Part shown: positions 3,341 to 25,697 of the stretch, piece by piece
Layout of the letters: every line of letters starts with the position of its first letter
How positions within the stretch are numbered: the stretch's first letter is position 1
IMG/VR virus record: IMGVR_UViG_3300047678_000503
Coordinates: 1-26,154 of that record
From: a virus
Length of the DNA stretch: 26,154 nt
Reading direction: 5' to 3' (one strand)
Position numbers and translations under genes: made by a program
The notes under the pieces: model-generated
What the model saw: the letters and a program-made list of their open reading frames with translations, nothing else
What the model was told of the DNA's origin: nothing
Database searches by the model: none

Positions 3341-3375
3341 GGCCCCACCCCAACCCTCCCCAAAGGAGAGGGGGT
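3341..3375 (+). repeat. GC-rich hairpin repeat, copy 2
   Basis: This is a second member of the CCCACCCC...CCTCCCC-AAA-GGAGAGGGG family, with an imperfect stem. Its right end touches the stop codon of the minus-strand gene at 3375, so it could form the 3' end of the late leftward transcript. Confidence 0.6.
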
Positions 3376-3875
3376 TAAACAGCCTTTTGAACGGCTAGCC
3401 TTGCCGTTGGTTTTGGTGCTTTTGCAATTACTGGCATGGCGCTGTTGTCTTTCATTTCGGTAGTAAAGGTTATCTCGTAAATGCGAACGCCATCTTCCCG
3501 TCTTATTCTACTGTTGTTGGTGCGTATGAGCGCACTGTAATTTTGCCCGCCGGTAAAGCCGTGCAAGGCAATGTACACATTGCGCAACAGCACAAAAATG
3601 CTATCAGCAGCTACTTTTTGCGTGAGCGGCGCACGCTGGCTGCTGTTGCTTAGGCGCAAATCGGCAATGCGCACTTTCACCTGCAATAATCCCAACTGTT
3701 GCAAATGGCCGCTGTTAGTCCATGTGGCAGAAACTACATCAACCAGGGCACAGGGCCATTTTACCGGCGGGTGGGGCTGGTAAAAATCAAGCTGCCCCCA
3801 ATCTTCGTCAATGTATTTTAATGCTGGCACTTTTAGGGCAAGGCGTGTGGTAACATCATCAATAATTTGTTCCAT
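3375..3875 (-). CDS. Tail terminator / head-tail completion protein (gp37-like position)
   Basis: The protein has 166 residues. It starts with an amphipathic helix (MEQIIDDVTTRLALKVPALK), then proline-rich PHPPVKWPCALVDV, then alternating beta strands (LLQVKVRIADL...YEITFTTEMKD). This alpha-beta outline with a central P-x-x-(F/W)-P-x-x-x-V/L-D motif is shared by tail terminators and Mu gp37-type proteins, which cap the tail and prepare it for joining to the head. Assignment rests on outline and position next to the gpG-like gene. It is the last gene of the leftward block, 12 bases after its upstream neighbour. Confidence 0.5.
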   Translation of the reverse strand: MEQIIDDVTTRLALKVPALKYIDEDWGQLDFYQPHPPVKWPCALVDVVSATWTNSGHLQQLGLLQVKVRIADLRLSNSSQRAPLTQKVAADSIFVLLRNVYIALHGFTGGQNYSALIRTNNSRIRREDGVRIYEITFTTEMKDNSAMPVIAKAPKPTARLAVQKAV

Positions 3876-3887
3876 ATTACTTTTTTA

Positions 3888-4439
3888 TTATTTTAGCCTT
3901 TGGGCAATGTAGGCAGCCAGTTCTTTTACATTTTCATCTAATACCTGCTGTACCATTTCATCCACCTTATTATGAGGGCCAATAAATTGCCGCTGTGGTA
4001 TTTTTAGTTTAGATCCCACTTTCATTAATGCCAACCCCTTGAAATATTCCGCTTCTTGTGTTAAGGCCATGTTCCTTTTGCTTTTGCTTACCTGTCCACT
4101 CTTTTTTGTGGTTACTCCCCCCGATGCCTTGTAATACATTGCCCAAAAGTATTTTTTCATAGCAGCGGTAACGGTAAGCGTGCCGCCTTCGTTGTGGATG
4201 GCAGCATACGGCATGCTGTTTGTGAAAGAAAGGCCGTTGCTAAGCACTTCCGTTTTGTTGCCCGCTCTCAGGTCACCAGTACGCATCATTAGGCTGCCAC
4301 GGCTTACCGCTCTTTTTGTGGCTGGCCATGCATCCGTAAAGAATGCTTTGCGCTCAAAATTGCGGTCAAATTCATCGGTAAGCTCTACCCGCAAGTCTTT
4401 AAGTACGTTGTGTAAAAAATTATCGAAAGTGGTGGCCAT
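3888..4439 (-). CDS. Phage virion morphogenesis protein, Mu gpG-like
   Basis: The protein has 183 residues. It shows the family layout of the phage virion morphogenesis proteins (Mu gpG, P2 gpS relatives): N-terminal helices, RGSLMMRTGDLRAG, then NSMPYAAIHNEGG, and a C-terminal PQRQFIG motif. The R-T-G-x-L-R, Y-A-x-I-H-x-x-G and P-x-R-x-F-(I/L)-G elements are diagnostic. The family acts in head or tail completion. It lies between the gpF-like and tail-terminator-like genes, as in Mu-like phages. A stretch KKSGQVSKSKRN (about residues 115-128) is a basic insert. The 61-base gap to the gpF-like gene holds half of a hairpin. Confidence 0.75.
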   Translation of the reverse strand: MATTFDNFLHNVLKDLRVELTDEFDRNFERKAFFTDAWPATKRAVSRGSLMMRTGDLRAGNKTEVLSNGLSFTNSMPYAAIHNEGGTLTVTAAMKKYFWAMYYKASGGVTTKKSGQVSKSKRNMALTQEAEYFKGLALMKVGSKLKIPQRQFIGPHNKVDEMVQQVLDENVKELAAYIAQRLK

Positions 4440-4486
4440 ATAATGTATTATATTTGTGGTGCCGGGATTGCGTATTCGGGCAGACT

Positions 4487-4515
4487 CAGGCGAAAAGGTT
4501 TTACTTTTTCGCCTG
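4487..4515. repeat. Perfect inverted repeat spanning the gpF-like stop codon
   Basis: CAGGCGAAAA (4487-4496) and TTTTCGCCTG (4506-4515) are perfect 10-base complements with a 9-base loop that contains the stop codon (4501-4503) of the minus-strand gpF-like gene. No T tract follows on the minus strand. On the plus strand TTTAATTTTT follows. It could be a transcript-stabilising hairpin or a scar of C-terminal module exchange. Confidence 0.6.
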
Positions 4516-5979
4516 TTTAATTTTTACTAACAGGTTTCCTTTTACAAGCCAGTTTATCTGATTGCCTAAAAAGTTAATGTCGTTAAAAGCTCTGTTTGAC
4601 AAGTAATCCACATCTTTTGCCGTAAAAGATTGTTGCAAGTCTGTAATTACAGGGATTGTTTCTTGCTCAGCCGCTTCTATCATCCTTTTTACGGCTTTAC
4701 TTTTTACTGTTGGCGTTTTTACGTCAAAGTATTGCTCCCCTATTTTTATATCTGGGTTTGAATTGCCTTTTATGCCTGGTAATAGCTTTGCCCTGGCTTC
4801 TTTTTCGCTAAAGTGTATTTCAGGGGGCATAAGCACGTTGCCGCCTTTTTTGGCAAATTCTTTAGCCACTGCCAGTACATTTTTAAAATCGCTTTTTTCG
4901 GGGTTTAAAAGCTGGTGTGCCAACACCTTTCCACCGCTGTCGTTATCGGAATGTAGGGTAGTATATTGATCTTCCACAGGTTTGGCATAAACGGCCTGTT
5001 TTTCTGCAACGCTGTACTTTTTCCCAAACCGTTCATCCGCCTGTTCATTCACCGCTTTTATGGCTTTGCACTTATCGTTGTTTTCATTGGCCAATTGCGT
5101 GTTGCAATTGCCGCTGTAGGTGTAGGGGTGGCCGGGCGGGAAAACCTTTTTCTCTTTACCGGCATTAAAGCGAAAAATTTCCGCTTTGTTTTTTCCATCC
5201 TTACCAATTTGGGTGGTGGCCACATCGCCTAATTTATTGGCTGTATCGCTATCGGTAACCTCGTATTTTCCTTTACGCACCTGTACGACTGTGCAGCGGC
5301 ACCGCCAGCCGTTTGGTGGGAAATAGCTGTTCCAAAAAGGGTCATCGACCGGCAGGGTAATATTGGCTAATGCCGCATGCGCTTTTCTTACTTTATCATC
5401 CTGTGCGGTACGGTATTGTAAATGGTAGCGGTCGCCATCCTGTTCGTACTGCTGCCATTTATCGGCCATTTGGGCGCTACGGGTTGCAAATATGTGTTCT
5501 GCTTCCAAATACTGTTCGTTGTATTTCGCCGATAACGGTTTTACATCCTGCAACCATTGCTGCCTTGGCTTTATGTTGCCATCGGGGTTTAGCAGCAAGT
5601 CGTTTGCTTCTTTTAGCTGGGTGTAGGTTTTCATGCTGCTAAACACAAAAACATTCTTTTCCAGCGCGGCCCTGATGGCAGGCGGCATTTGCTGGCTAAC
5701 GCCGGTGTTAACGGCGTTTTTAAGCACATTAAAAGTGCTTTCGGTAAGCTTTTTAACTGGTGCAGCCTGCAAATCGGCAGCGGCAAAGCCTTTATTGCCA
5801 TGCAGCCAGTTGGCGGCTTCATCAAAGGCGCTCATTACGGCTTTTATGCCAGGTATGCCGTCCAAGAGTATTTCGTGCGTGAGGGCACGCAAGGGTTCGC
5901 AGCATTCGGCATATAGCTTTTGCAACTGGTAATGCAGCCCTATGTAAACAGCCTTAGCCCCTTGTGTGTGGCAATACAA
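4501..5979 (-). CDS. Mu gpF-like minor head protein fused to a C-terminal nuclease-like domain
   Basis: The protein has 492 residues. The central head-morphogenesis domain (about 100-240) has the family signature: FSSMKTYTQLKEA, then QYRTAQDDKVRKAHAAL, then DDPFWNSYFPPNGWRCRC. In Mu, gpF is a minor capsid protein that helps shape the head. After about residue 340 an unrelated C-terminal module follows. Its core KGNSNPDIKIGEQYFDVKTP, then helices and VITDLQQSF, resembles the tRNase/BECR-type or PD-(D/E)xK-like toxin tips of CdiA and other polymorphic toxins, with D...DxK as likely active residues. Fusions of gpF with such nucleases are known as phage polyvalent proteins, thought to be injected with the DNA. 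No immunity gene is adjacent. The start is uncertain: TTG 5979 lies in a hairpin loop, and the first ATG is at codon 49. Confidence 0.75.
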   Translation of the reverse strand: MYCHTQGAKAVYIGLHYQLQKLYAECCEPLRALTHEILLDGIPGIKAVMSAFDEAANWLHGNKGFAAADLQAAPVKKLTESTFNVLKNAVNTGVSQQMPPAIRAALEKNVFVFSSMKTYTQLKEANDLLLNPDGNIKPRQQWLQDVKPLSAKYNEQYLEAEHIFATRSAQMADKWQQYEQDGDRYHLQYRTAQDDKVRKAHAALANITLPVDDPFWNSYFPPNGWRCRCTVVQVRKGKYEVTDSDTANKLGDVATTQIGKDGKNKAEIFRFNAGKEKKVFPPGHPYTYSGNCNTQLANENNDKCKAIKAVNEQADERFGKKYSVAEKQAVYAKPVEDQYTTLHSDNDSGGKVLAHQLLNPEKSDFKNVLAVAKEFAKKGGNVLMPPEIHFSEKEARAKLLPGIKGNSNPDIKIGEQYFDVKTPTVKSKAVKRMIEAAEQETIPVITDLQQSFTAKDVDYLSNRAFNDINFLGNQINWLVKGNLLVKIKQAKK

Positions 5980-5986
5980 TTGCCAC
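5968..5986. repeat. Hairpin around the putative gpF-like start
   Basis: GTGGCAA (5968-5974) and TTGCCAC (5980-5986) are perfect complements with a 5-base loop, in the 11-base gap between portal and gpF-like genes. CCCC and GGGG flank it at 5958-5961 and 5987-5990. The likely TTG start on the minus strand falls in the loop and stem edge, so folding could limit translation of the fusion protein. Confidence 0.55.
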
Positions 5987-5990
5987 GGGG

Positions 5991-7208
5991 CTACCCGAAA
6001 AAATCAGAAAGCTGTAACTTCTGCTTTGCTGCCGGGTCAGTGGCAGGCGTTGCCCTTTCGCCGGTTACCTCAATGCCAAAGGTTTTTTTAATCCATTCAG
6101 GGTCTACATTAAAGTATTGCAGCGCGCCGCTGGTGTACTTCCAAAGGCTTTCCAAATCGGGCACCTGTTCAAATTCGCCCATAATGCCCGGCTTTATAAG
6201 GCCCAATTTTGCCAGTGCCGGAAGTATGATACTGTTGAAAGATTGTTCAATCAAAGCCATATCTGCCTTAACCAGGTTAAACAACATGTTCTGGCTGCTG
6301 TCTTCTTTTGAACGGTTGCCATTAACGGTATCTTGCCCAATAACGGCACCACTTACCAGCAAGCTTATTTCGTTATTGCAAAGCGCAATCAGGTTTTTAT
6401 ATACATCCCCGTTGGTGCTGTCAACTTTTGCAAATTCAAAGGTTTCTTCTTCATCAATTATGAACCATGCAGCCGCCCCCATATCACTCATCATGCTTTC
6501 GGCACGTTTAAGCATGGTGGGGTCTTGTGTGTTGGTTTTCATATAGCGCGGTGGTATGCCGTATATCTCACATAGTTCGCTCCAACAGCTTTGTGCAAAT
6601 CGCTTAAACAATACGTGCGGCACTGCCTTGTTAAGCAATCCAAGATCGCCTGTATTAAACTCTAAAATGTAAGTGCCATATTCGGGCATTTCGCGGTACT
6701 TAATAGAAGTATCTTCCGAATAATCTTTGAAGTACAAGCCAAGCTGTGGTACAACGTTTGTGCGTGGCAATACAATGGCGTTTGCCTGTATGCCTGCATC
6801 GGTTTTGCTAAGTTCCAGTTCAACCAGGTTGTAACCGTAATACACGCTATCTAACACTGCTTTGCATAGCTGCCGGTAAATAGGCATTTTGCTAAGCAAT
6901 GCTGTTTGTTCTTCATCCACTTCGCCGGTTGCCGATTTTAGTTTAAAAGGGATAGAAAAGATTTGCTGTTGGCGGTTTTCAACCTGGCTGGTAAGTAATG
7001 CATCAATCCTTGCCTCATTATACAGCAACTGCAAGGCAAAATTCTTTGCCTCCTCTGCCATTGCCTGGTTGTAGGCATCATTCCAAACCTTTATATCGGC
7101 ACGCATTCGGCTTACTGCCTTAAGGGTGTTTGGCAGTACCCTTTTTTTATCGGGTGTTGAAGCTGCTAATGTTTTTTTGCCACGGGAAAAAGAGAAAGAA
7201 AATTGCAT
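5991..7208 (-). CDS. Portal protein, DUF935 / Mu gp29-like
   Basis: The protein has 405 residues and belongs to the Mu gp29 portal family, somewhat short for the family. It forms the dodecameric ring through which DNA enters and leaves the head. Visible family features are the N-terminal helical part with DALLTSQVENRQQQIFS (about residues 68-84), YGYNLVELE, then FAQSCWSELCEIYGIPPRYMK (about 210-230), and a C-terminal NEISLLVSGAVIGQDT segment. The C-terminus is helical and polar. The gene is preceded by the gp36-like gene after 9 bases and followed by gpF after 11 bases, so all are one transcript. Confidence 0.85.
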   Translation of the reverse strand: MQFSFSFSRGKKTLAASTPDKKRVLPNTLKAVSRMRADIKVWNDAYNQAMAEEAKNFALQLLYNEARIDALLTSQVENRQQQIFSIPFKLKSATGEVDEEQTALLSKMPIYRQLCKAVLDSVYYGYNLVELELSKTDAGIQANAIVLPRTNVVPQLGLYFKDYSEDTSIKYREMPEYGTYILEFNTGDLGLLNKAVPHVLFKRFAQSCWSELCEIYGIPPRYMKTNTQDPTMLKRAESMMSDMGAAAWFIIDEEETFEFAKVDSTNGDVYKNLIALCNNEISLLVSGAVIGQDTVNGNRSKEDSSQNMLFNLVKADMALIEQSFNSIILPALAKLGLIKPGIMGEFEQVPDLESLWKYTSGALQYFNVDPEWIKKTFGIEVTGERATPATDPAAKQKLQLSDFFG

Positions 7209-7217
7209 AAGTATTTT

Positions 7218-7661
7218 TTATTCGTGGTTGAATTTTTTTCGGCTTCCGGAGCTGAAAGGTTGCCTGGTTGTGGTGGTGGTATCAAGTGTTGGCAGGTCTA
7301 AGGTTATTTCGCCTTTTGAAACCTTTGTTAACCAGGTAGTGGCACGGTCGTAACGTTCTTTCACGTTTTCATATATTATGTCAACATTGCATAGACGTAT
7401 AACATACCACAAGGCTATGCTTTTAGTCATTTCAAGCAACAACGCATGCCGTGCTGTACCTGTAGCATTAAATGTTGCATCAGCATCGTATTGCAAACGC
7501 CCATCTAACCATTCCTTTTTATTGTTGCCGCGTATATAACTTTTGCTTTCATCAGTTGCGGCAAGTATGGCCATCATTATAATATCATCGTCTGCCTCAG
7601 TTATTTGCTCAATCTCGTATTGATAAACAACCGTTTTAAGTTCTTCAATTTCGATAAACAT
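7218..7661 (-). CDS. DUF1320 head-tail connector, Mu gp36-like
   Basis: The protein has 147 residues. The family pattern is clear: acidic start IEIEELKTVVYQ, a helical segment ending AATDESKSYIRG, LLEMTKSIALWYVIRLC, then VKERYDRATTWLTKVSKGEITLDLP. The Y-x-x-A-x-x-W-L-x-x-V-x-x-G motif is typical. These proteins join below the portal as adaptor of the head-tail interface. In Mu the gene lies after the major capsid gene. Here it sits between large terminase and portal on the opposite strand, a rearranged order. Three tandem heptamers lie immediately upstream of its ATG. Confidence 0.8.
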   Translation of the reverse strand: MFIEIEELKTVVYQYEIEQITEADDDIIMMAILAATDESKSYIRGNNKKEWLDGRLQYDADATFNATGTARHALLLEMTKSIALWYVIRLCNVDIIYENVKERYDRATTWLTKVSKGEITLDLPTLDTTTTTRQPFSSGSRKKFNHE

Positions 7662-7681
7662 GGTGAATGGTGAATGGTGAA
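7661..7681. repeat. Three tandem TGGTGAA heptamers between terminase and gp36-like genes
   Basis: TGGTGAA is repeated perfectly at 7661-7667, 7668-7674 and 7675-7681, filling the entire gap between the two minus-strand genes. Its first base is shared with the gp36-like ATG. Copy number change would alter only spacing. Confidence 0.9.
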
Positions 7682-9184
7682 TTAAAAACGATGGCTAACG
7701 CGCTTGCCATATTTATAAGTGGTATTAGTGGCTTGTGTTCGCCGGTTTAGTTTAAATACAGCGCCTTCCAATGCATCTGGTGCATCATCGTGGCTTTTGC
7801 TGCCTTTCTCAAACATTAGCAGCTGTTCAACCAGTTTAATTACGCCTTCGCTTTCTTTTTCCTTTTCGTTTATAATCAGTAAGCGGCGTTCAAACAGTGG
7901 CTGCATGGCCTCAATACGGGCGAACTTGTCAGGTTTTTTTCTATCATCGCCACGTATAGGTATATGGTGACCAAGGATCCTGCCAACCTCTGTAAATTCA
8001 TTCAAAAGCAAGTCCTGAATGAAATTGCTTTCCATGAAATACATAACAGGAACTTCACCATTAATCCATTTTTCAATGTCGTAATGCCATGCAACCATTT
8101 CGCTTACGCTTACCTGACCGGCGTACATTTTAAGCAAATGATATTCGCCCGTTGGAGCCTTGCCCAATAATGCAGTTGCTTTGTAATCTGCTGTATTGCT
8201 GTCTTTAAAAGATGGGTCGGTATAGCATACGAGAGAGCGGTATTGCTTAAGCGGCAATATTTTACCATACACAATATGTTTTTGTTTGAATACGGTACCT
8301 TCTGTTATAGGGTTGTTCATGTATTCTTTTTGAAATCGGCGTTCGCCAATCAGCTCAATAATGGCATTAACTTCCGCAAGGGTATAGTTTTCGTGCCATG
8401 TTACTTTGCCTTTTTTATCAAGCATATTTACCACCGTGTGGTGTATGCCTTTTAATTGGGCAAAGCGGCTTAAAACGCTATCTTTTGCCAGCCTGTTGCC
8501 TACAAATACCAGCCTTCCGCGACCGCCTTCCATAGCGCCAAAAAGAGCGGTTAAAATCCATTCTAACACCTGGCCAACACGGCGCGGATTCAATACCAAT
8601 TCATCATCATCAACGTCATCAACCACAATGTAATCGGGCCTTCTTCCACGGTTTTTTAACCCGCGTGGCGATTGGCCACGGCCCAATGCCAAAAACTTTG
8701 CTCCGCTGGTGGTATTAAATTCACCTTCCGTCCAACTGCCTTCCACTACTTGCGGGCCAAAATCTGCAATTAATCTTTCGTTATATTGCAGTTCGGCTTG
8801 CAGATCACTAAGCAGGCGCACGGCTGCATCCTGGCTTTTGCTGACCAAAACCATGAAGTGCAGTTCATCCTGCAAAAGCAACCAAAGTGGAATTAACAAG
8901 GATGCATGCGAAGATTTTGCATGTCCACGCGCCCATTCAAGCAACGCCCGAATGGTTTTGCAACGCTTAATAATGTGTGCAGCATCTTTTTGAAATTTTG
9001 CAGTTTCTTTTGTAGCGAGGTGGGGAAAGTATTCTTTAACATAAAAGCCATAATCGCTCAAAGCACGTTTCTTTCGGGCATGCTTTACGGTTTCACTGTC
9101 TTCGCCAGTAAAAGTGGTTGCCAGTATCCACTGAACCCGGTCTGCCCAGCGTTGCAGTAATTCTTTGCTTGCTTTAAAAGCCAT
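7682..9184 (-). CDS. Terminase large subunit, Mu gp28-like
   Basis: The protein has 500 residues. It is the DNA-packaging motor: an N-terminal ATPase and C-terminal RNase-H-fold nuclease. Visible motifs are the Walker A-like ARGHAKSS (about 85-92), Walker B PDYIVVDDVDDDE (about 183-195), and nuclease acidic sites in CYTDPSFKDSNTADYK (about 318-335) and HDDAPDALEG (about 465-475). Length fits the family. It starts 1 base after the end of the small subunit gene, so translation is probably coupled, and heads the packaging part of the leftward late operon. Confidence 0.92.
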   Translation of the reverse strand: MAFKASKELLQRWADRVQWILATTFTGEDSETVKHARKKRALSDYGFYVKEYFPHLATKETAKFQKDAAHIIKRCKTIRALLEWARGHAKSSHASLLIPLWLLLQDELHFMVLVSKSQDAAVRLLSDLQAELQYNERLIADFGPQVVEGSWTEGEFNTTSGAKFLALGRGQSPRGLKNRGRRPDYIVVDDVDDDELVLNPRRVGQVLEWILTALFGAMEGGRGRLVFVGNRLAKDSVLSRFAQLKGIHHTVVNMLDKKGKVTWHENYTLAEVNAIIELIGERRFQKEYMNNPITEGTVFKQKHIVYGKILPLKQYRSLVCYTDPSFKDSNTADYKATALLGKAPTGEYHLLKMYAGQVSVSEMVAWHYDIEKWINGEVPVMYFMESNFIQDLLLNEFTEVGRILGHHIPIRGDDRKKPDKFARIEAMQPLFERRLLIINEKEKESEGVIKLVEQLLMFEKGSKSHDDAPDALEGAVFKLNRRTQATNTTYKYGKRVSHRF

Positions 9185-9185
9185 T

Positions 9186-9722
9186 TTAATTACTGTTTAA
9201 ATTGCATAATCTGTTTTGAATAAATGCATCCTGTAAACGGGTAAGGCGTTTTATAAAATCATCATCAATACCCTCTTTTATTCGGCGGTCTAACAAAAAA
9301 TTTTGAAAATCCATGAGGCACATTACTTCATCATCCACCGTATTGCGCTGCTTTAATGTTTTAAGCTGGCTTACTGCTTTTGCAAAAGCATCGGCATTAA
9401 AGTCTTCCTCATCCAGCATTCCGTTTATCTTTTCCAGCGCTTTAACAATAAGCGTATCCATGCTTATGTTTTTGCTGGCCCGCTTAGCCTCCCAATTGTC
9501 TTTTGTTTTCCAGTCGGTAATTGTTTGTATACTTACGTTGCAGCGTTCGGCAATGTCGTTTTGCGGCACCCGCTTCATGTAAAGGATAAATGCATAATCA
9601 CGGTTGCCATCGTTTTTACTGGCCCGTGTTTTTTTTACAGCAAGCTTTTTTGCAATGGGTTTTACCACTGCTTTTTTAGCAGCTGGCTTTGCTGTTTTTT
9701 TTATTGTTTTTGCCTTTGACAT
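9186..9722 (-). CDS. Terminase small subunit-like protein
   Basis: The protein has 178 residues. The first 38 are a Lys/Ala-rich, histone-like tail (KTIKKTAKPAAKKAVVK...). Next comes a helix-turn-helix (about 42-80) with VPQNDIAERCNVSIQTITDWK followed by NWEAKR, the usual DNA-recognition form of small terminases. The rest is helical, ending with LTRLQDAFIQNRL. Small terminase selects phage DNA and stimulates the large subunit. The very basic N-terminal tail is unusual and may add nonspecific DNA binding. It is the first gene of the leftward operon. Confidence 0.8.
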   Translation of the reverse strand: MSKAKTIKKTAKPAAKKAVVKPIAKKLAVKKTRASKNDGNRDYAFILYMKRVPQNDIAERCNVSIQTITDWKTKDNWEAKRASKNISMDTLIVKALEKINGMLDEEDFNADAFAKAVSQLKTLKQRNTVDDEVMCLMDFQNFLLDRRIKEGIDDDFIKRLTRLQDAFIQNRLCNLNSN

Positions 9723-10925: not shown

Positions 10926-11840
10926 ATGCCTGCAAATTTTCCCGAAGTATGGCTGCGTAGGGTACGCACCAACATTATATTGGGCGCAATAGCGCCTTGG
11001 ATTGACCGCGTGCCTGAATTAGATGTTCAGGTTACGGAAGTGAACGAAGGCGATATAAGTGAGCAAAACACCATCCACATACCAACCAGTGTGTTTAAGC
11101 CTGATGTTTTAATCAACAACACCACTTACCCGCTTGCATTACAGTCATATACTGACAGTAAGGTTACCGTTAACCTGGATAAATATCAGACGCTGGTAAC
11201 TACCCTTACTGATGACCAGGTAATAGGTGCTGCATACCCGCAAATTGATTTTGCCACCAAACAGCATGTTGCTGCTATTCTTGAAAAGAAGTATGCAAAA
11301 GGTATTCATGCGCTTGCACCAGCCAGCAACGTAGCTGCAACACCGGTATTGCTTACCACGGGTGATCTTGTAAGCGGCAGGCGAAGATTGCTGTATGATG
11401 ACCTGGTTGCATTGGGCTTGCAGTTCGATAAACAAGGCTATTCAAAAATTGGCCGCGTGTTTGTACCAAGCCCCGATCATTACAGCGACATGCTGCTTGA
11501 TCGTAAAAACTTTGGCGACCAACTGGTTAACTACCGCGAAGGAACAATTGTTCCAAAAGTTGCCGGATGGGAAATTATGCCTGCATACAGTGCTAACCCG
11601 TTCTATACCATTAGCACAAAAGTAAAGCTGGCATTTGCCGCTGTACCTGGTGCCGGTACTTCACAAGCTTCCGTTGCTTTTTGCAGCGATGGCGTAATGA
11701 AGAAAACCGGTTTGACCAAACAGTATTTTGACAAACCAACCGCACGTAACCAGCAGAATGAAATTGCCTACAGGCATTACTTTATCTGCCTGCCTTACGC
11801 AGCATCCAACATTGGTGCTGTAATTGATGCAGCCTCTTAA
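10926..11840 (+). CDS. Major capsid protein
   Basis: The protein has 304 residues. Composition and outline suit an HK97-fold coat protein: N-terminal MPANFPEVWLRRVRTNI, beta-rich centre with DKYQTLVTTLTDDQVIGAAYPQ, helix FATKQHVAAILEKKYAKGI (spine-helix-like), GYSKIGRVFVPSPDHYSDML, and C-terminal AYRHYFICLPYAASNIG. Similar proteins follow the protease/scaffold gene in Bacteroidota Mu-like phages. The family name is assigned from memory and order, not from a search. Hairpins flank the gene on both sides, suggesting a separately stabilised or processed transcript for this abundant protein. Confidence 0.8.
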   Translation: MPANFPEVWLRRVRTNIILGAIAPWIDRVPELDVQVTEVNEGDISEQNTIHIPTSVFKPDVLINNTTYPLALQSYTDSKVTVNLDKYQTLVTTLTDDQVIGAAYPQIDFATKQHVAAILEKKYAKGIHALAPASNVAATPVLLTTGDLVSGRRRLLYDDLVALGLQFDKQGYSKIGRVFVPSPDHYSDMLLDRKNFGDQLVNYREGTIVPKVAGWEIMPAYSANPFYTISTKVKLAFAAVPGAGTSQASVAFCSDGVMKKTGLTKQYFDKPTARNQQNEIAYRHYFICLPYAASNIGAVIDAAS

Positions 11841-11873: not shown

Positions 11874-11903
11874 AGGGGTGTCCCCGTAAAAAGGGATGCC
11901 CCT
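11874..11903 (+). terminator. Hairpin downstream of the capsid gene
   Basis: AGGGGTGTCCC (11874-11884) pairs with GGGATGCCCCT (11893-11903) over 11 bases with two G-U pairs and an 8-base loop, followed by ATTAAAAACTTTT. It is probably a leaky terminator or mRNA-stabilising hairpin. It covers the ATG at 11896, supporting ATG 11923 as start of the next gene. Confidence 0.5.
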
Positions 11904-11922
11904 ATTAAAAACTTTTATTGTG

Positions 11923-12237
11923 ATGTTACTTGATGCAAGCGCAGCCATTTTACAGGATATTGTACAAACGGGTGGCACACTTGCTGTACTGGCTTTCTTT
12001 CTTGTTTACTTTATGAAAGAGCAGAAAGAGGTACGCGGTAAGATGGATGCACTGGTAATAAAGTACGAAAGCGACATAAAAGAGTTGCGTAAAACCTACG
12101 ATGATAAAGTAGACGGCCTGGTAAAACGTATTGATGATATAAACGGAAAAAGCCTGAGCGCCATTTTTGATTTTAAAATGAGTAATGACCGGCTGACGGA
12201 AGCCGTTAATCACTTAACCGAAAAATTACATTCATGA
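11923..12237 (+). CDS. Holin-like membrane protein (BhlA/UviB-like)
   Basis: The protein has 104 residues from ATG 11923. An N-terminal helix is followed by one membrane segment (about 14-31, GTLAVLAFFLVYFMKE), then a long charged coiled coil (KEQKEVRGKMDALVIKYESDIKELRKTY...). One membrane segment directly followed by K-E-x-K-E-x-R and a coiled coil is the plan of BhlA/UviB-type holins. Holins permeabilise the inner membrane to start lysis. The gene overlaps the next, a secreted GH10-type enzyme, by 4 bases (ATGA), the layout of a holin-endolysin pair. An alternative is a structural or spanin-like protein. ATG 11896 is possible but lies in a hairpin. Confidence 0.6.
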   Translation: MLLDASAAILQDIVQTGGTLAVLAFFLVYFMKEQKEVRGKMDALVIKYESDIKELRKTYDDKVDGLVKRIDDINGKSLSAIFDFKMSNDRLTEAVNHLTEKLHS

Positions 12238-13421
12238 AAACATTTATTTTTTTTACTCTGCTATTGCTGTTTGCCTTTGCATGCCAAACGCCTAAACAAA
12301 TTGCCGGTACAAACAAAGTTATACCTGTACTTAGTAATGCTGCTGATGCTGAAAGTGTTGATCTTAAAACTGCTCTGCTGAAAAATAATGTAAAGCTCGG
12401 CGTTTGTGTAAGCACTGCTGATATACAGAACAGATACCCACGGCCTAATAACTTTATGGAAGCCATTGCAAAGTACTTTAATTACTATACCATTAGTGTA
12501 AGCTTTAGCATGGTAGAACGAACGAGAGGAAAGTTTGATTTTACGGTAGCTGATAGAATAGTTGAATTTGCTATTAAGCAACATGGTAAGGTTAAAGGCC
12601 ATTCGCTGGTGCTTGTGGGTGCTATACCTGATTGGGTTGAACAGGGCAATTTTTCGGCAGATACCCTAAAGGAAATACTTAAAACACACGTACAAACTAT
12701 AGTAAAGCACTTTAAAGATAAGTACCCTGGTGCGGTGGATAGCTGGCAGGTGGTAAACGAATCGGTGTGTAATGGTAACATACCGGTTGATTGCCCAAAA
12801 GGTATAAAGAATGTGGTGTGGACAAATATTCATAAGGCTGGTTCAACCGATGAAAGAGACTATATAGCACTTGCCTTTGAATGGGCACACCAGGCAGACC
12901 CTGAGGCTAAGCTTTACCTGAACGAAGACGGCAACGAATACGATGTACACCCTAAGAAACAACGAATATTTGATTTGCTGACCTGGCTGGTAACGAATAA
13001 TGTACCCATAGATGGCGTGGGTATGGAAGCGCACCTGCGATTGTATTATAGCCCGAAAATAACTGTGGCAGGGCTTTTGGCTACCATAAAAAGTTATGCG
13101 GCCCTTGGTTTAGAAACACAAATTACAGAAACTGATGTACTGCTTAGCCGGGGTTACGAGCCTAATAGTTTGCCAACAAAGCCAATACCTGTAATTAAGC
13201 CAGTTGCTGCCGATTACCAGGAACAGGCGAACCTGTATGCAACTTTGCTAAATGCCTGTATTAAAAGTAAAAACTGTACTGCATTTACCACCGGTGCCAC
13301 TTACGATGGCGCAAGCTGGACTAAAAACTACTGGCCCGAAAACAGCTACTACGATCAAATTTTAGATACGGCAGTAAAGCCAAAACAGGCGTATTATACC
13401 ATGCTTGCTGCTGCCAATTAA
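12234..13421 (+). CDS. Divergent GH10-family glycoside hydrolase, predicted lipoprotein
   Basis: The protein has 395 residues. A lipoprotein signal ends at Cys17 (LLLFAFAC) with no acidic surface-export signal after it, suggesting a periplasmic-facing lipoprotein. Residues about 50-390 are a GH10 (endo-beta-1,4-xylanase family) barrel: GKFDFTVAD, VKGHSLVLVGAIPDWV, DSWQVVNES (acid/base Glu176), AKLYLNEDGNEYD, VPIDGVGMEAHL, ETQITETDV (nucleophile Glu299), ATYDGASW. The two catalytic Glu, Asn175, His123 and His267 are kept. Classical xylose-binding sites are not: ENEMKW is TISVSFSM, WH after GH is LV, Q in GxQxH is Glu265, and W of the WG motif is missing. Substrate is probably not plain xylan. 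It is translationally coupled to the holin-like gene inside the virion operon, so a lysis enzyme, a host-surface glycanase or lysogenic conversion are all open. Confidence 0.8.
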   Translation: MKTFIFFTLLLLFAFACQTPKQIAGTNKVIPVLSNAADAESVDLKTALLKNNVKLGVCVSTADIQNRYPRPNNFMEAIAKYFNYYTISVSFSMVERTRGKFDFTVADRIVEFAIKQHGKVKGHSLVLVGAIPDWVEQGNFSADTLKEILKTHVQTIVKHFKDKYPGAVDSWQVVNESVCNGNIPVDCPKGIKNVVWTNIHKAGSTDERDYIALAFEWAHQADPEAKLYLNEDGNEYDVHPKKQRIFDLLTWLVTNNVPIDGVGMEAHLRLYYSPKITVAGLLATIKSYAALGLETQITETDVLLSRGYEPNSLPTKPIPVIKPVAADYQEQANLYATLLNACIKSKNCTAFTTGATYDGASWTKNYWPENSYYDQILDTAVKPKQAYYTMLAAAN

Positions 13422-13444: not shown

Positions 13445-13747
13445 ATGAAACATATAGCTTCTTACTTTGAAGGTTACCCGTATAGCAACCAGGCATTTGA
13501 AACAAGCGACAACACGCTTTTTCATAGCGAGGTTGACGCCAAAAACCATGCTGTGTCCTTAAAAGATAAGGATATTAAAACGCATAAACGTCCTGCCCCT
13601 GAAACTGCTGAAAAACCGGCCACCCAAAAAAATGCTGAACCGGCAGCAGATGGCGATAAAACTACCGAAGCTGCTAAAGGAAAAAAAGGCAAAGTTGAAA
13701 AGCCTGAATTGAAGGTTACTGGCTCTGAAATTCCAGCGGCACAATAG
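13445..13747 (+). CDS. Small Bacteroidota phage protein before the sheath (gp35-like position)
   Basis: The protein has 100 residues. Residues 1-45 form a compact region (FEGYPYSNQAFETSDNTLFHSEVDAKNHA) with the pattern T-x-D-x-x-x-F-x-x-x-x-x-A-x-x-H-A, which I associate with small phage proteins next to the capsid or sheath gene in Bacteroidota. The remaining 55 residues are disordered, rich in K, E, A and P. The role may be head-tail joining, as inferred for Mu gp35, but evidence is position only. Confidence 0.6.
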   Translation: MKHIASYFEGYPYSNQAFETSDNTLFHSEVDAKNHAVSLKDKDIKTHKRPAPETAEKPATQKNAEPAADGDKTTEAAKGKKGKVEKPELKVTGSEIPAAQ

Positions 13748-13804: not shown

Positions 13805-15001
13805 ATGTTACCAAGGGTAAAAATATTTTTTGAAAATGGCGCTTTAGGTAAGGTGGTAACGCCTGCTGATGGTGTGTTGGGATTGCTTTGCACGGGTGCT
13901 ACCGTTTCTAACACTTTTGCACTTGCAACGCCTTACATAGTGCGTAACCTTGATATGGTTGCTGCGCTTGGTATTACAGCATCAAACAACCCTTCCATAT
14001 TTAAAATTGCCAGCGAATACTACGCGGAAGCAGGCAACGGTGCCGAACTCTGGATTATGGCTTTTGCCGATACCGTTAAGATAAGCGACATGGTAGATGT
14101 GGCTGATGCCGCCAAAGGCAAAGCCCTTATTAATGCTGCCAATGGCCGGTTGCGTGGTTTAATTGTTAGCCGCAAACCGGCCGGGGGTTACACGCCAACC
14201 ATTACCAATGGCCTTGATGCTGATGTAGCCCTTGCACTCACTAAAGCAAGTGTGCTGGCAGACTGGGCGCGGGAAAGTAAATATGCACCTGTGTTTATTG
14301 CCATTGAAGGTTATGCCTACAGCGGCAACCCGGTTGCCCTGGCTGACCTTAAAACCAACACAAAAAACACCATTTCTATACTTATTGGCGATACGGTTGT
14401 AAGCAGCAAGCAAGCCGCTGTAGGTGTACTGGCTGGCCGCATTGCCAGCATACCCGTGCAGCGCAATATTGGCAGGGTAAAGGATGGCCCTGTAAAAGCG
14501 CCTGAAATTTACATTTACGACAAACCAGCCGAACAGGCAGATGTGGAAAGCATCCATAACAAAGGGTACATAACCTTTCGCACATTTATTGGCCGCAGCG
14601 GGTACTTTTTTAGCGATGACCCTACTGCCACGGCGGATACGGATGATTACAGCAGCTTAACCGCCCGGCGCACGATTGATAAAGCTTACCGTATTGCTTA
14701 CGATACTATGTTGGAAGAATTGCTGGACGAAGTACCGGTAACCAGTACGGGCACCCTGCAATTGCCGATAGTAAAAAGCTGGGAGGCTAAAGTGGAAAAT
14801 GCCATTGCCAGCGGTATGACAGCCAATGGCGAATTAAGTGCAGACGTAACGGATGCAAATGACCGTGGCGTTAAATGCTATATAGACCCTGATCAAAACA
14901 TTATTTCAAACAGCATTCTTGATGTAAACATACGTGTGCGGCCATTTGGTTACCCGCGCTACATCAACGTGTATTTAGGTTTCCAGGTGATCAGCGCCTA
15001 A
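13805..15001 (+). CDS. Tail sheath protein (DUF2586-like)
   Basis: The protein has 398 residues and forms the contractile outer tube. Its N-terminal domain begins LPRVKIFFENGALGK and contains AAEYYAEAGNGAELWIM-like segments (about 67-85). The middle has the insertion domain with NTKNTISILIGDTV and AAVGVLAGRIASIPVQRNIGRV. The C-terminal handshake region carries RTIDKAYRIAYDTMLEELLDEVP followed by VKSWEAKVENAI and ends with beta strands RVRPFGYPRYINVYLGFQV. The R-T-I-D-K-A helix and I-x-V-x-I-R-V-x-P final strands are typical sheath features. The tube gene follows after a hairpin, as expected for a sheath-tube pair. Confidence 0.85.
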   Translation: MLPRVKIFFENGALGKVVTPADGVLGLLCTGATVSNTFALATPYIVRNLDMVAALGITASNNPSIFKIASEYYAEAGNGAELWIMAFADTVKISDMVDVADAAKGKALINAANGRLRGLIVSRKPAGGYTPTITNGLDADVALALTKASVLADWARESKYAPVFIAIEGYAYSGNPVALADLKTNTKNTISILIGDTVVSSKQAAVGVLAGRIASIPVQRNIGRVKDGPVKAPEIYIYDKPAEQADVESIHNKGYITFRTFIGRSGYFFSDDPTATADTDDYSSLTARRTIDKAYRIAYDTMLEELLDEVPVTSTGTLQLPIVKSWEAKVENAIASGMTANGELSADVTDANDRGVKCYIDPDQNIISNSILDVNIRVRPFGYPRYINVYLGFQVISA

Positions 15002-24029: not shown

Positions 24030-25697
24030 ATGAGCTTACAGGTTACGCCTTTCAATACAATTCAGGAATGGTTTCGCAGGCGCAAGAAGCCAACACAAGG
24101 CCAGTTTTGGAACACCTTTTTTTCATTCAGGCACAAGAGTGATAAGATAGCCATGAATGATTTAGATGATGAATTGCAAGGCGCTATTAATGATAGTAGT
24201 GGTGGTGGGTCACTGGCAAGTGTGTTGGCCGCTGGTAATGAAACCGGCGAACACGATATTCAGCTTACCGAAGGTGACAGGCTGGTAGTAGGAATCAACC
24301 GGGCAGGCGTTGGTAAGGGTTCATTTGAAACCGGAAGGGGTGACGACCAGGGCGTTAGCATGCATTCTGCCGCAGGTTTTGAGCTCAATTATCAAGCGGG
24401 CTATCTTAGAAATTTTCCTGAGAATGACCCTGAAAATATTCAACCCTTATATGTTGATTCAGAACTAATTTATAGCGGGGATGCACCCTCTGAGCCTTCC
24501 GATGGAAGGAGTTTGGTTGATAAAAATTATGTGAATACTCGTTATGTTAATCGTATTGCTGGTACAGCAGATGGTGGCCCTCCTATTTCAGGCAGTCTTA
24601 TGTTAAGGCAAGATAATGAACCTAATCGTCCTTTTACAGACATTGAAGCAGGTTCTATACTTATCGGTAACGGAACAGTAGAACAGAATACATGTTATAC
24701 AGGAAGTGGTTTATATTGTTCAGATACTGCTTATTTTATACAAACTAAACCTAAAGAGGAAGGAGGAAGAGGTCTTACTGCAAGTGAGGATTTTTCAAGT
24801 GTTGTTCAAGATAATGATTATGTACAGAAAATTTTTGTTACTACTGCTATTACAGAAGCAATTGGGGGTGGAGGTAGTGGAGGAAGTACTCCTTCTTTAA
24901 ATCAAGTATTATCTCAAGGAAATGAAACTTTAGAACATGATATTATCTTAACTGAAGGTGACAGGCTGGTAGTAGGTGGCAACCGGGCAGGTGTTGGTAA
25001 GGGTTCATTTGACACCTCAAGGGGTGGCGACGGGGGCGTTAGCATGCATTGTGCCGTAGGTTTTGAGCTCAATTATCAAGCGGGCTATCTTAGAAATTTT
25101 CCTGAGAATGACCCTGAAAATATTCAACCCTTATATGTTGATTCAGAACTAATTTATAGCGGGGATGCACCCTCTGAGTTTTCCGATGGAAGGAGTTTGG
25201 TTGATAAAAATTATGTGGATAATGCAATAGCAGGAGCAAGTGGTAGTAGCAATACTACAGGCAAAATGCGTTATATACCTGTGAATACAAATCACTCAAG
25301 TTCAAGTAATGCGTATACTATTCCTATACTAACAGTAAATACAGGCAAGTCGGTAAAAGTTACCGTGTTTTTTGAAGTTACAATTATCGAGGGCGCTTTT
25401 GCAATGGAAAGCCTATATTTTACAACTTCTTTTCAAGGCCAAATGGACTGCATTGTAATTAATACAGCAAATGGGTTTTATTCAAAAAGAATTATAAGGT
25501 CGAGTTTTTCAACATACGCTGAACCAGGAACAGGCCGCGTTTTTGATCAACTATTTACTCCTTATGGAATTGAAAGCTGTGTGATGTCGGGTCTATCGGG
25601 TAGCAGTTCCTATAATTTACAATTAAGAATTACTGAAAATGAAGTTGGTTCAAGCAACAATGTAAAAATAATTGGATATACACTGGTTGAAATTTAA
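24030..25697 (+). CDS. Second tail fibre protein with duplicated shaft module
   Basis: The protein has 555 residues. The N-terminus (residues 1-55: FNTIQEWFRRRKKPTQGQF, then FFSFRHKSDKIAMNDLDDEL) is a Bacteroidota fibre-anchor motif. Two homologous modules follow: LASVLAAGNETGEHDI...GRSLVDKNYV and LNQVLSQGNETLEHDI...GRSLVDKNYV, ending about residues 170 and 398. Their DNA is nearly identical over 265 bases (24270-24534 and 24954-25218). The part between modules and the C-terminal domain (about 410-555, beta-rich) use AT-rich codons (AGA, GGA, TTA) unlike the upstream tail genes, so the fibre is mosaic. The C-terminal domain is probably the receptor-binding tip, but I do not recognise its family. 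Confidence 0.7.
   Translation: MSLQVTPFNTIQEWFRRRKKPTQGQFWNTFFSFRHKSDKIAMNDLDDELQGAINDSSGGGSLASVLAAGNETGEHDIQLTEGDRLVVGINRAGVGKGSFETGRGDDQGVSMHSAAGFELNYQAGYLRNFPENDPENIQPLYVDSELIYSGDAPSEPSDGRSLVDKNYVNTRYVNRIAGTADGGPPISGSLMLRQDNEPNRPFTDIEAGSILIGNGTVEQNTCYTGSGLYCSDTAYFIQTKPKEEGGRGLTASEDFSSVVQDNDYVQKIFVTTAITEAIGGGGSGGSTPSLNQVLSQGNETLEHDIILTEGDRLVVGGNRAGVGKGSFDTSRGGDGGVSMHCAVGFELNYQAGYLRNFPENDPENIQPLYVDSELIYSGDAPSEFSDGRSLVDKNYVDNAIAGASGSSNTTGKMRYIPVNTNHSSSSNAYTIPILTVNTGKSVKVTVFFEVTIIEGAFAMESLYFTTSFQGQMDCIVINTANGFYSKRIIRSSFSTYAEPGTGRVFDQLFTPYGIESCVMSGLSGSSSYNLQLRITENEVGSSNNVKIIGYTLVEI
24270..24534 (+). repeat. Fibre-module repeat, copy A
   Basis: This 265-base segment has an ungapped copy at 24954-25218, 684 bases (228 codons) away. 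I count 14 differences, at least 12 of them in codons that change the amino acid. About 115 bases (from about 24378 to 24492) are identical. Confidence 0.9.
24954..25218 (+). repeat. Fibre-module repeat, copy B
   Basis: This is the second copy of the segment at 24270-24534, in the same orientation and reading frame. Amino-acid changes relative to copy A include I to G, E to D, G to S, D to G, Q to G, S to C, A to V and P to F. The lead-in (24890-24950) is homologous at protein level to the lead-in of copy A but diverged in DNA. Confidence 0.9.

Follow-up and report, generated by a model that had tools for sequence, protein, structure and literature searches.

Genetic context of the gene pair

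The locus resides in a viral contig of IMG/VR, whose entire linear sequence of 26,154 bp, here termed the window, was analysed. It contains two partly overlapping reading frames on the plus strand, encoding a small membrane protein and a protein with the fold of a glycoside hydrolase of family 10 (GH10), which are embedded between the genes of the major capsid protein and the tail sheath (Table 1). The original prediction had described both open reading frames (ORFs), the ATGA that they share and their location between capsid and sheath genes, all of which we find in place, with the capsid gene upstream and a 100-residue ORF followed by the DUF2586 tail sheath downstream. For the upstream frame, which extends to position 12237, the second ATG had been chosen as start, with the first located at 11896.

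Table 1. Features of the capsid-to-sheath interval and its borders, with positions in the window.
Feature	Position	Strand	Evidence or remark
Major capsid protein, forming the conserved left edge of the slot	10926..11840	+	Phage_capsid_4 E=1.9e-7; PHROG 267 major head E=8e-20
Small membrane protein of BhlA/UviB plan (one transmembrane segment, charged tail with coiled coil)	11896..12237	+	Alternative start 11923
ATGA start/stop overlap, membrane protein/GH10 protein	12234..12237	+	Predicted translational coupling
Signal peptide with lipobox AFA-C17	12234..12284	+	Sequence
GH10-fold glycoside hydrolase, 395 aa, occupying the endolysin site of the cassette	12234..13421	+	PF00331, PDB, model, Foldseek
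Codon of Glu176, GH10 acid/base (WQVVNE)	12759..12761	+	
Codon of Glu299, GH10 nucleophile (ITETD)	13128..13130	+	
100-aa ORF, conserved right border of the slot, directly before the sheath	13445..13747	+	blastp
Tail sheath (DUF2586)	13805..15001	+	PF10758 E=3.8e-63; PHROG 907 tail sheath E=6e-44

The contig represents part of the genome of a Mu-like phage of Bacteroidota, which has a contractile tail and is of the Winoviridae type. Its Mu-like gene set includes MuF, a Mu-type portal, Gp36, a prohead protease, the capsid protein, the DUF2586 sheath, the tape measure and the hub, and the presence of an AntA antirepressor gene suggests that the phage is temperate. The major capsid protein was matched in 28 relatives in tblastn searches and the 100-residue ORF resembles the pre-sheath ORF of most relatives (blastp E 1e-4 to 1e-8). 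The terminase, portal and head-morphogenesis genes (3375-9722) are inverted with respect to the rest of the window. Among them, the MuF head protein (4501-5979, minus strand) has a C-terminus that weakly matches the CdiA_C toxin domain over residues 408-464, with an E-value of 1.4e-4 and a score that does not reach the curated cut-off, and it might constitute a MuF-toxin fusion that is delivered with the virion. The gene of a fibre-like protein (24030-25697), whose GC3 of 0.27 is lower than that of any other gene in the window, contains a 300-nt direct repeat (24234-24533 and 24918-25217) with copies that are 91% identical and spaced by 684 nt. A search with the 3' fibre gene for an overlapping contig that would extend the window found none.

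Features of the GH10 protein

The assignment of the downstream protein to the GH10 family in the original prediction is confirmed by a match to PF00331 (E=1.3e-58, 199 bits at a cut-off of 22), which spans profile positions 3-310 of 311 and hence the entire catalytic domain. The nearest sequence of known structure is the xylanase 1xyz (E=3e-38 in the PDB), and the identity to aligned GH10 relatives ranges between 24 and 34%. Structure prediction and superposition on a GH10 xylanase had been suggested as a check, and an AlphaFold model made from an alignment of eight sequences (pLDDT 78, pTM 0.81) identified 1xyz_A as the top match in Foldseek (E=7e-28, TM-score 0.90 by target length). In a library of predicted viral structures, the nearest matches to this model are GH5-type barrels with a TM-score of about 0.54. 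With PF00331 as the only catalytic domain, the protein contains none of the catalytic domains of known peptidoglycan hydrolases, and no peptidoglycan-binding domain was detected in its sequence.

Residue mapping located both catalytic glutamates, Glu176 and Glu299, whose retention, together with the changes at xylose-binding positions, had led to the view of a catalytically intact scaffold that is retuned to another substrate. The catalytic and supporting residues retained in the protein encompass His123, Asn175, Glu176, His267, Glu299, Asp301 and Trp362. Equally in line with the original prediction, the xylose-binding motifs are changed, as found for ENxMK, W127-H128, the glutamine of GxQxH (Glu265) and the tryptophan of WG (Gly354). 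As reference for the mapping we used the residues listed for subsites -1 and -2 of TmxB, the Thermotoga XynB (PMC6163442). Six of the nine residues of subsite -1 are kept (His123, Asn175, Glu176, His267, Glu299 and Trp362), the losses concerning a lysine, a tryptophan (now Leu127) and a glutamine (now Glu265), which correspond to Lys71, Trp108 and Gln228 of TmxB, and all five residues listed for subsite -2 (Glu67, Asn68, Lys71, Gln111 and Trp300 of TmxB) are replaced. In 15 other GH10 domains that were compared, the tryptophan at position 127 is kept throughout, and the lysine and the tryptophan at position 354 are kept wherever the sequence covers them. The conservation of the catalytic machinery in conjunction with the loss of the grip on xylose points towards a different substrate rather than decay. 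The protein thus lacks the xylose-binding residues that would be expected for an endo-1,4-beta-xylanase, and the loss of the xylose subsites makes plain xylan an unlikely target. Concerning the view of an intact but retuned scaffold, the residues agree with both of its parts, while activity and substrate are predicted from sequence. A further trait of the protein, an extra loop between two cysteines (Cys179 and Cys187) following the acid/base glutamate, is also found in the GH10 protein of another virus contig (L055, 2632-3792), which carries a signal peptide.

The N-terminus of the GH10 protein (MKTFIFFTLLLLFAFAC-QTPKQI) is defined by a signal peptide ending in an AFAC lipobox, which resembles the AWAC lipobox that was verified experimentally (PMC6139136). 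In Bacteroidetes, surface lipoproteins contain acidic residues after the cysteine and periplasm-facing lipoproteins do not, with K-(D/E)2, Q-A-(D/E)2, SDDDD or SDDFE acting as export signals in a rule that was established in few genera only (PMC5080379). Since the residues at positions +2 to +7 (QTPKQI) include no acidic side chain, the protein lacks the signature for surface export and is predicted to reside as lipoprotein in the outer membrane facing the periplasm, and hence peptidoglycan, with the proviso that a rule derived from few genera may not be that of the host. We consider peptidoglycan as the likeliest, albeit unproven, substrate. To our knowledge, no GH10 enzyme cutting peptidoglycan is known. 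The main text of the papers on the phage-lysin databases PhaLP and PhaLP 2.0 does not mention GH10, and we have found no paper describing a GH10 endolysin in the literature that was searched.

The partner membrane protein

The label 'holin-like', which had been assigned to the upstream protein, holds with respect to its general plan, with one transmembrane segment at the N-terminus and, behind it, a charged tail of coiled-coil type as judged from hydropathy and sequence, while the underlying scores are weak. The match to Holin_BhlA (PF10960, E=4.8e-4) amounts to 20.5 bits and is below the cut-off of 22.6, the match to the uviB-type PHROG 2429 has an E-value of 6e-4, and no match was obtained in NCBIfam. 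DUF2730 (PF10805), the domain of the Mu releasin, was not among the Pfam matches at E<=0.1. Homology to the membrane proteins found at the equivalent position of related phages was rejected (hhalign probability 0.3%), with agreement confined to plan and position. We thus regard the protein as putative holin or releasin-like lysis regulator. Since the GH10 protein has its own export signal, no pore would be needed for its passage to the periplasm, and a partner that controls timing or activation, akin to a pinholin or the Mu releasin gp25, would fit better than a canonical holin.

The capsid-to-sheath interval in related phages

To place the gene pair into context, we gathered 37 related loci from IMG/VR by similarity of their capsid, sheath and portal proteins and inspected the interval between capsid and sheath, here termed the slot. 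A peptidoglycan hydrolase occupies the slot in 17 of the 37 loci. These enzymes belong to five families, with eight CHAP, four Amidase_2, two M15_3 and two GH108 proteins and one GH24 phage lysozyme, of which 11 were typed directly by Pfam and the others by similarity to those 11. The enzyme usually follows either a small coiled-coil protein with one transmembrane segment or a Phage_holin_4_1 holin and usually precedes a lipoprotein with a C-terminal transmembrane segment, as in the plan of a u-spanin. The reading frames of membrane protein and enzyme overlap by four nucleotides in eight of the 17 hydrolase-bearing slots, in six by ATGA (L004, L005, L009, L012, L015 and L024) and in two by GTGA (L006 and L007). 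In none of the 37 relatives does the slot contain an enzyme other than a lysin. The presence of lysins in 17 slots and the absence of any other enzyme type define the interval between capsid and sheath as a lysis cassette. It is a socket that is filled in turn by at least five enzyme families without relationship to each other. In the window, the place of the enzyme is held by the GH10 protein. As the slot already takes non-homologous enzymes, there is precedent for one more replacement. A scan of the window for proteins combining a lipobox with a C-terminal transmembrane segment did not identify a u-spanin, which leaves the cassette incomplete as a classical lysis set. GH10 was absent from the 30 records of relatives that were searched.

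Three of the related loci (L032, L033 and L034) contain sheath proteins that are 59-62% identical to that of the window and capsid proteins that are far more distant, which suggests an exchange of head and tail modules. In L032 and L034, the slot is occupied by GTA-type holins with three transmembrane segments.

The original prediction of a lysis pair is thus supported by the correspondence of the slot to the lysis cassette of relatives, by the endolysin position of the GH10 protein and by an overlap as found in eight relatives, with the role in lysis itself being predicted. Our preferred reading, to which we assign a probability of about 0.45, is that the pair forms a lysis cassette in which a periplasmic GH10 glycosidase acting at the stage of lysis takes the place of the endolysin.

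Endolysins at other positions and other viral GH10 proteins

As had been claimed, the window encodes no classical endolysin, with no Pfam endolysin family found in the 33 ORFs that were scanned. The contig is shorter than the records of most larger relatives (30-40 kb), and relatives whose slot is devoid of an enzyme carry an endolysin elsewhere. A coiled-coil protein with one transmembrane segment is found in the slot of several loci that lack the enzyme (L010, L011, L014, L016-L019, L022, L025 and L031). In two of them, the endolysin is located at the right end of the record, either as M15 protein 12.95 kb past the start of the sheath (L016) or encoded by a CHAP-like gene at a distance of 12.7 kb (L011), illustrating that about 13 kb may lie between the holin-like gene and that of the endolysin. 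In the record of L033, an M15 protein is encoded in the opposite half, on the early side, and the tail regions of L020, L021, L026, L030, L035 and L038 harbour a GH108, M15 or amidase protein. Since the window ends 12.35 kb past the start of its own sheath gene, an endolysin gene could lie just beyond.

GH10 proteins are also found in other viruses. The contigs L053/L054, L055, L056 and L057 encode full GH10 domains, several of which contain an N-terminal signal or membrane segment. Unlike the protein of the window, these retain the tryptophan and the lysine of the subsites and are located outside a lysis slot. In L054 and L055, the GH10 protein coexists with a separate amidase-type gene, which in L055 is an Amidase_3 gene (6780-7343) situated three genes downstream of that of GH10.

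The off-slot endolysins of relatives and the amidase-type genes of L054 and L055 speak for a role of the GH10 protein as accessory degrader of polysaccharides, a reading we hold as the foremost alternative and regard as only somewhat less probable than the replacement of the endolysin. In this case, the enzyme would be made late, released by lysis or displayed on the envelope, and would loosen capsule, exopolysaccharide or plant hemicellulose to aid the spread of the phage, with the endolysin being encoded outside the fragment. Disfavouring such a role, the slot of relatives contains either a lysis enzyme or none but never an accessory enzyme, the predicted lipoprotein carries no acidic signal for surface export, and its altered xylose subsites are hard to reconcile with plain xylan as target. 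It is the fragmentary nature of the window, together with the off-slot endolysins of relatives and the amidase genes accompanying other viral GH10 proteins, that restricts our confidence in the replacement of the endolysin and lends weight to an accessory enzyme.

Origin of the GH10 gene

Searches of IMG/VR for further GH10 genes next to BhlA-like holins, a check that had been proposed for Bacteroidota prophages, found the pair in no other phage, and its designation as new type consequently rests on one contig. Searches for close GH10 relatives in IMG/VR by peptides of the window and by alignment yielded generic GH10 proteins at about 30% identity only, and the matches to the degenerate motifs GVGMEAH and WQVVNExV in the same collection were unrelated proteins. 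A scan of 84,980 species genomes, whose seeding by peptides makes it insensitive to distant relatives, returned two GH10 relatives of 25-27% identity. Taken together, no close homologue was found in the phage, plasmid, viral and species-genome collections, where the best matches reach identities of 25-34%. The GC content, GC3 and codon use of the gene match those of the phage.

Cellular genomes and plasmids, those of Bacteroidota among them, commonly carry GH10 genes, which, along with the temperate lifestyle suggested by the AntA antirepressor, would be compatible with the capture of a GH10 lipoprotein that serves the nutrition or the envelope of the lysogen and that by chance was placed in a variable slot. 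We consider this scenario improbable, in light of a start codon that overlaps with the preceding late gene, the common strand with the virion operon, the phage-like codon usage and the lack of a close cellular homologue in the searched collections. A recent insertion from the host was rejected on the grounds of the shared composition and codon use, and the missing close cellular homologue in the genome, plasmid and phage searches, together with the absence of the gene from the records of 30 relatives, lends no support to a recent acquisition from a sampled host. An assembly chimera is unlikely in view of the four-nucleotide overlap with the upstream phage gene and the distance of 23 bp to a conserved phage gene.

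The least probable explanation, a structural use as outer-membrane lipoprotein of poor catalytic competence, which would either substitute for the u-spanin or prevent superinfection and would bind glycans without relevant hydrolysis, would account for the predicted lipidation, the cassette lacking the u-spanin-like lipoprotein that follows the endolysin of relatives and the loss of several substrate-binding residues, but it leaves the conservation of both catalytic glutamates and their supporting residues unexpected and is at odds with the lack of the C-terminal transmembrane segment that a u-spanin needs.

A possible mechanism of lysis and its implications

If, as we favour, the pair constitutes a lysis cassette, the GH10 protein would be made late together with the virion proteins and, by means of the lipoprotein signal that it carries, would reach the outer membrane on the side facing the periplasm. 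There, it would cut a beta-linked glycan of the envelope in a retaining mechanism involving the two glutamates, with the glycan strands of peptidoglycan as the most likely target. The membrane protein would time lysis either by a collapse of the proton-motive force or by activation of the exported enzyme, rather than by providing a path for the enzyme, a role for which pinholins and the Mu releasin, both acting for exported endolysins, offer precedent. Several further observations count against a replacement of the endolysin: a GH10 enzyme acting on peptidoglycan would be without known precedent, the protein has no peptidoglycan-binding domain, no u-spanin was found in the window, lipidation is unusual for an endolysin and the arrangement is known from one contig only. 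The most specific form of this proposal, where the GH10 fold has been re-tooled into a hydrolase of peptidoglycan glycan strands and thus a lipid-anchored endolysin activated by a partner with a single transmembrane segment, is less likely than not. If true, a peptidoglycan hydrolase would be known from the GH10 family for the first time, and endolysins would gain a new catalytic class.

What is new at this locus is the GH10 protein as member of a lysis cassette, which was seen once, in a type of cassette that itself is known. In a broader context, lysis cassettes of phages act as sockets for the swapping of unrelated peptidoglycan hydrolases. If a fold associated with plant polysaccharides has entered this socket, either GH10 proteins can evolve activity towards peptidoglycan, which would widen the chemistry of endolysins, or a late operon deploys a glycan-degrading enzyme instead of a lysin. 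Viral 'xylanases' that are counted as auxiliary metabolic genes may thus include envelope-active lysis proteins.

Comparison with known systems

With Flavobacterium phage fF4, a member of the Winoviridae, the window shares part of its layout, where inverted genes on the terminase side are followed by protease and capsid genes on the opposite strand. The small membrane protein follows the plan of the BhlA/UviB holin-like family (PF10960), with a score below the curated cut-off of this family, and the formation of holes or killing of the membrane by this protein would be putative. The GH10 protein shares the (beta/alpha)8 fold and the pair of acid/base and nucleophile glutamates with GH10 xylanases such as 1xyz and the Thermotoga XynB (1vbr), from which it differs by its location inside the late operon of a phage.

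Lysis by Mu involves the SAR endolysin gp22, the releasin gp25 with its DUF2730 domain and spanins (PMC9239132). The resemblance to this system extends to the Mu-like phage, an enzyme that is exported on its own, as predicted for the GH10 protein, and a membrane-tethered regulator with one transmembrane segment and a cytoplasmic tail, whereas gp22 as SAR endolysin is neither a GH10 protein nor a lipoprotein. The closest correspondence is found in the cassettes of the related phages. Their CHAP, Amidase_2, M15_3, GH24 or GH108 enzyme, usually accompanied by a u-spanin-like lipoprotein, is in the window replaced by a GH10 lipoprotein, with no spanin found. In turn, the position between capsid and sheath, the coiled-coil protein with one transmembrane segment as first gene, the four-nucleotide overlap and the strand are common to the window and the cassettes of L004, L009, L012, L015 and others.
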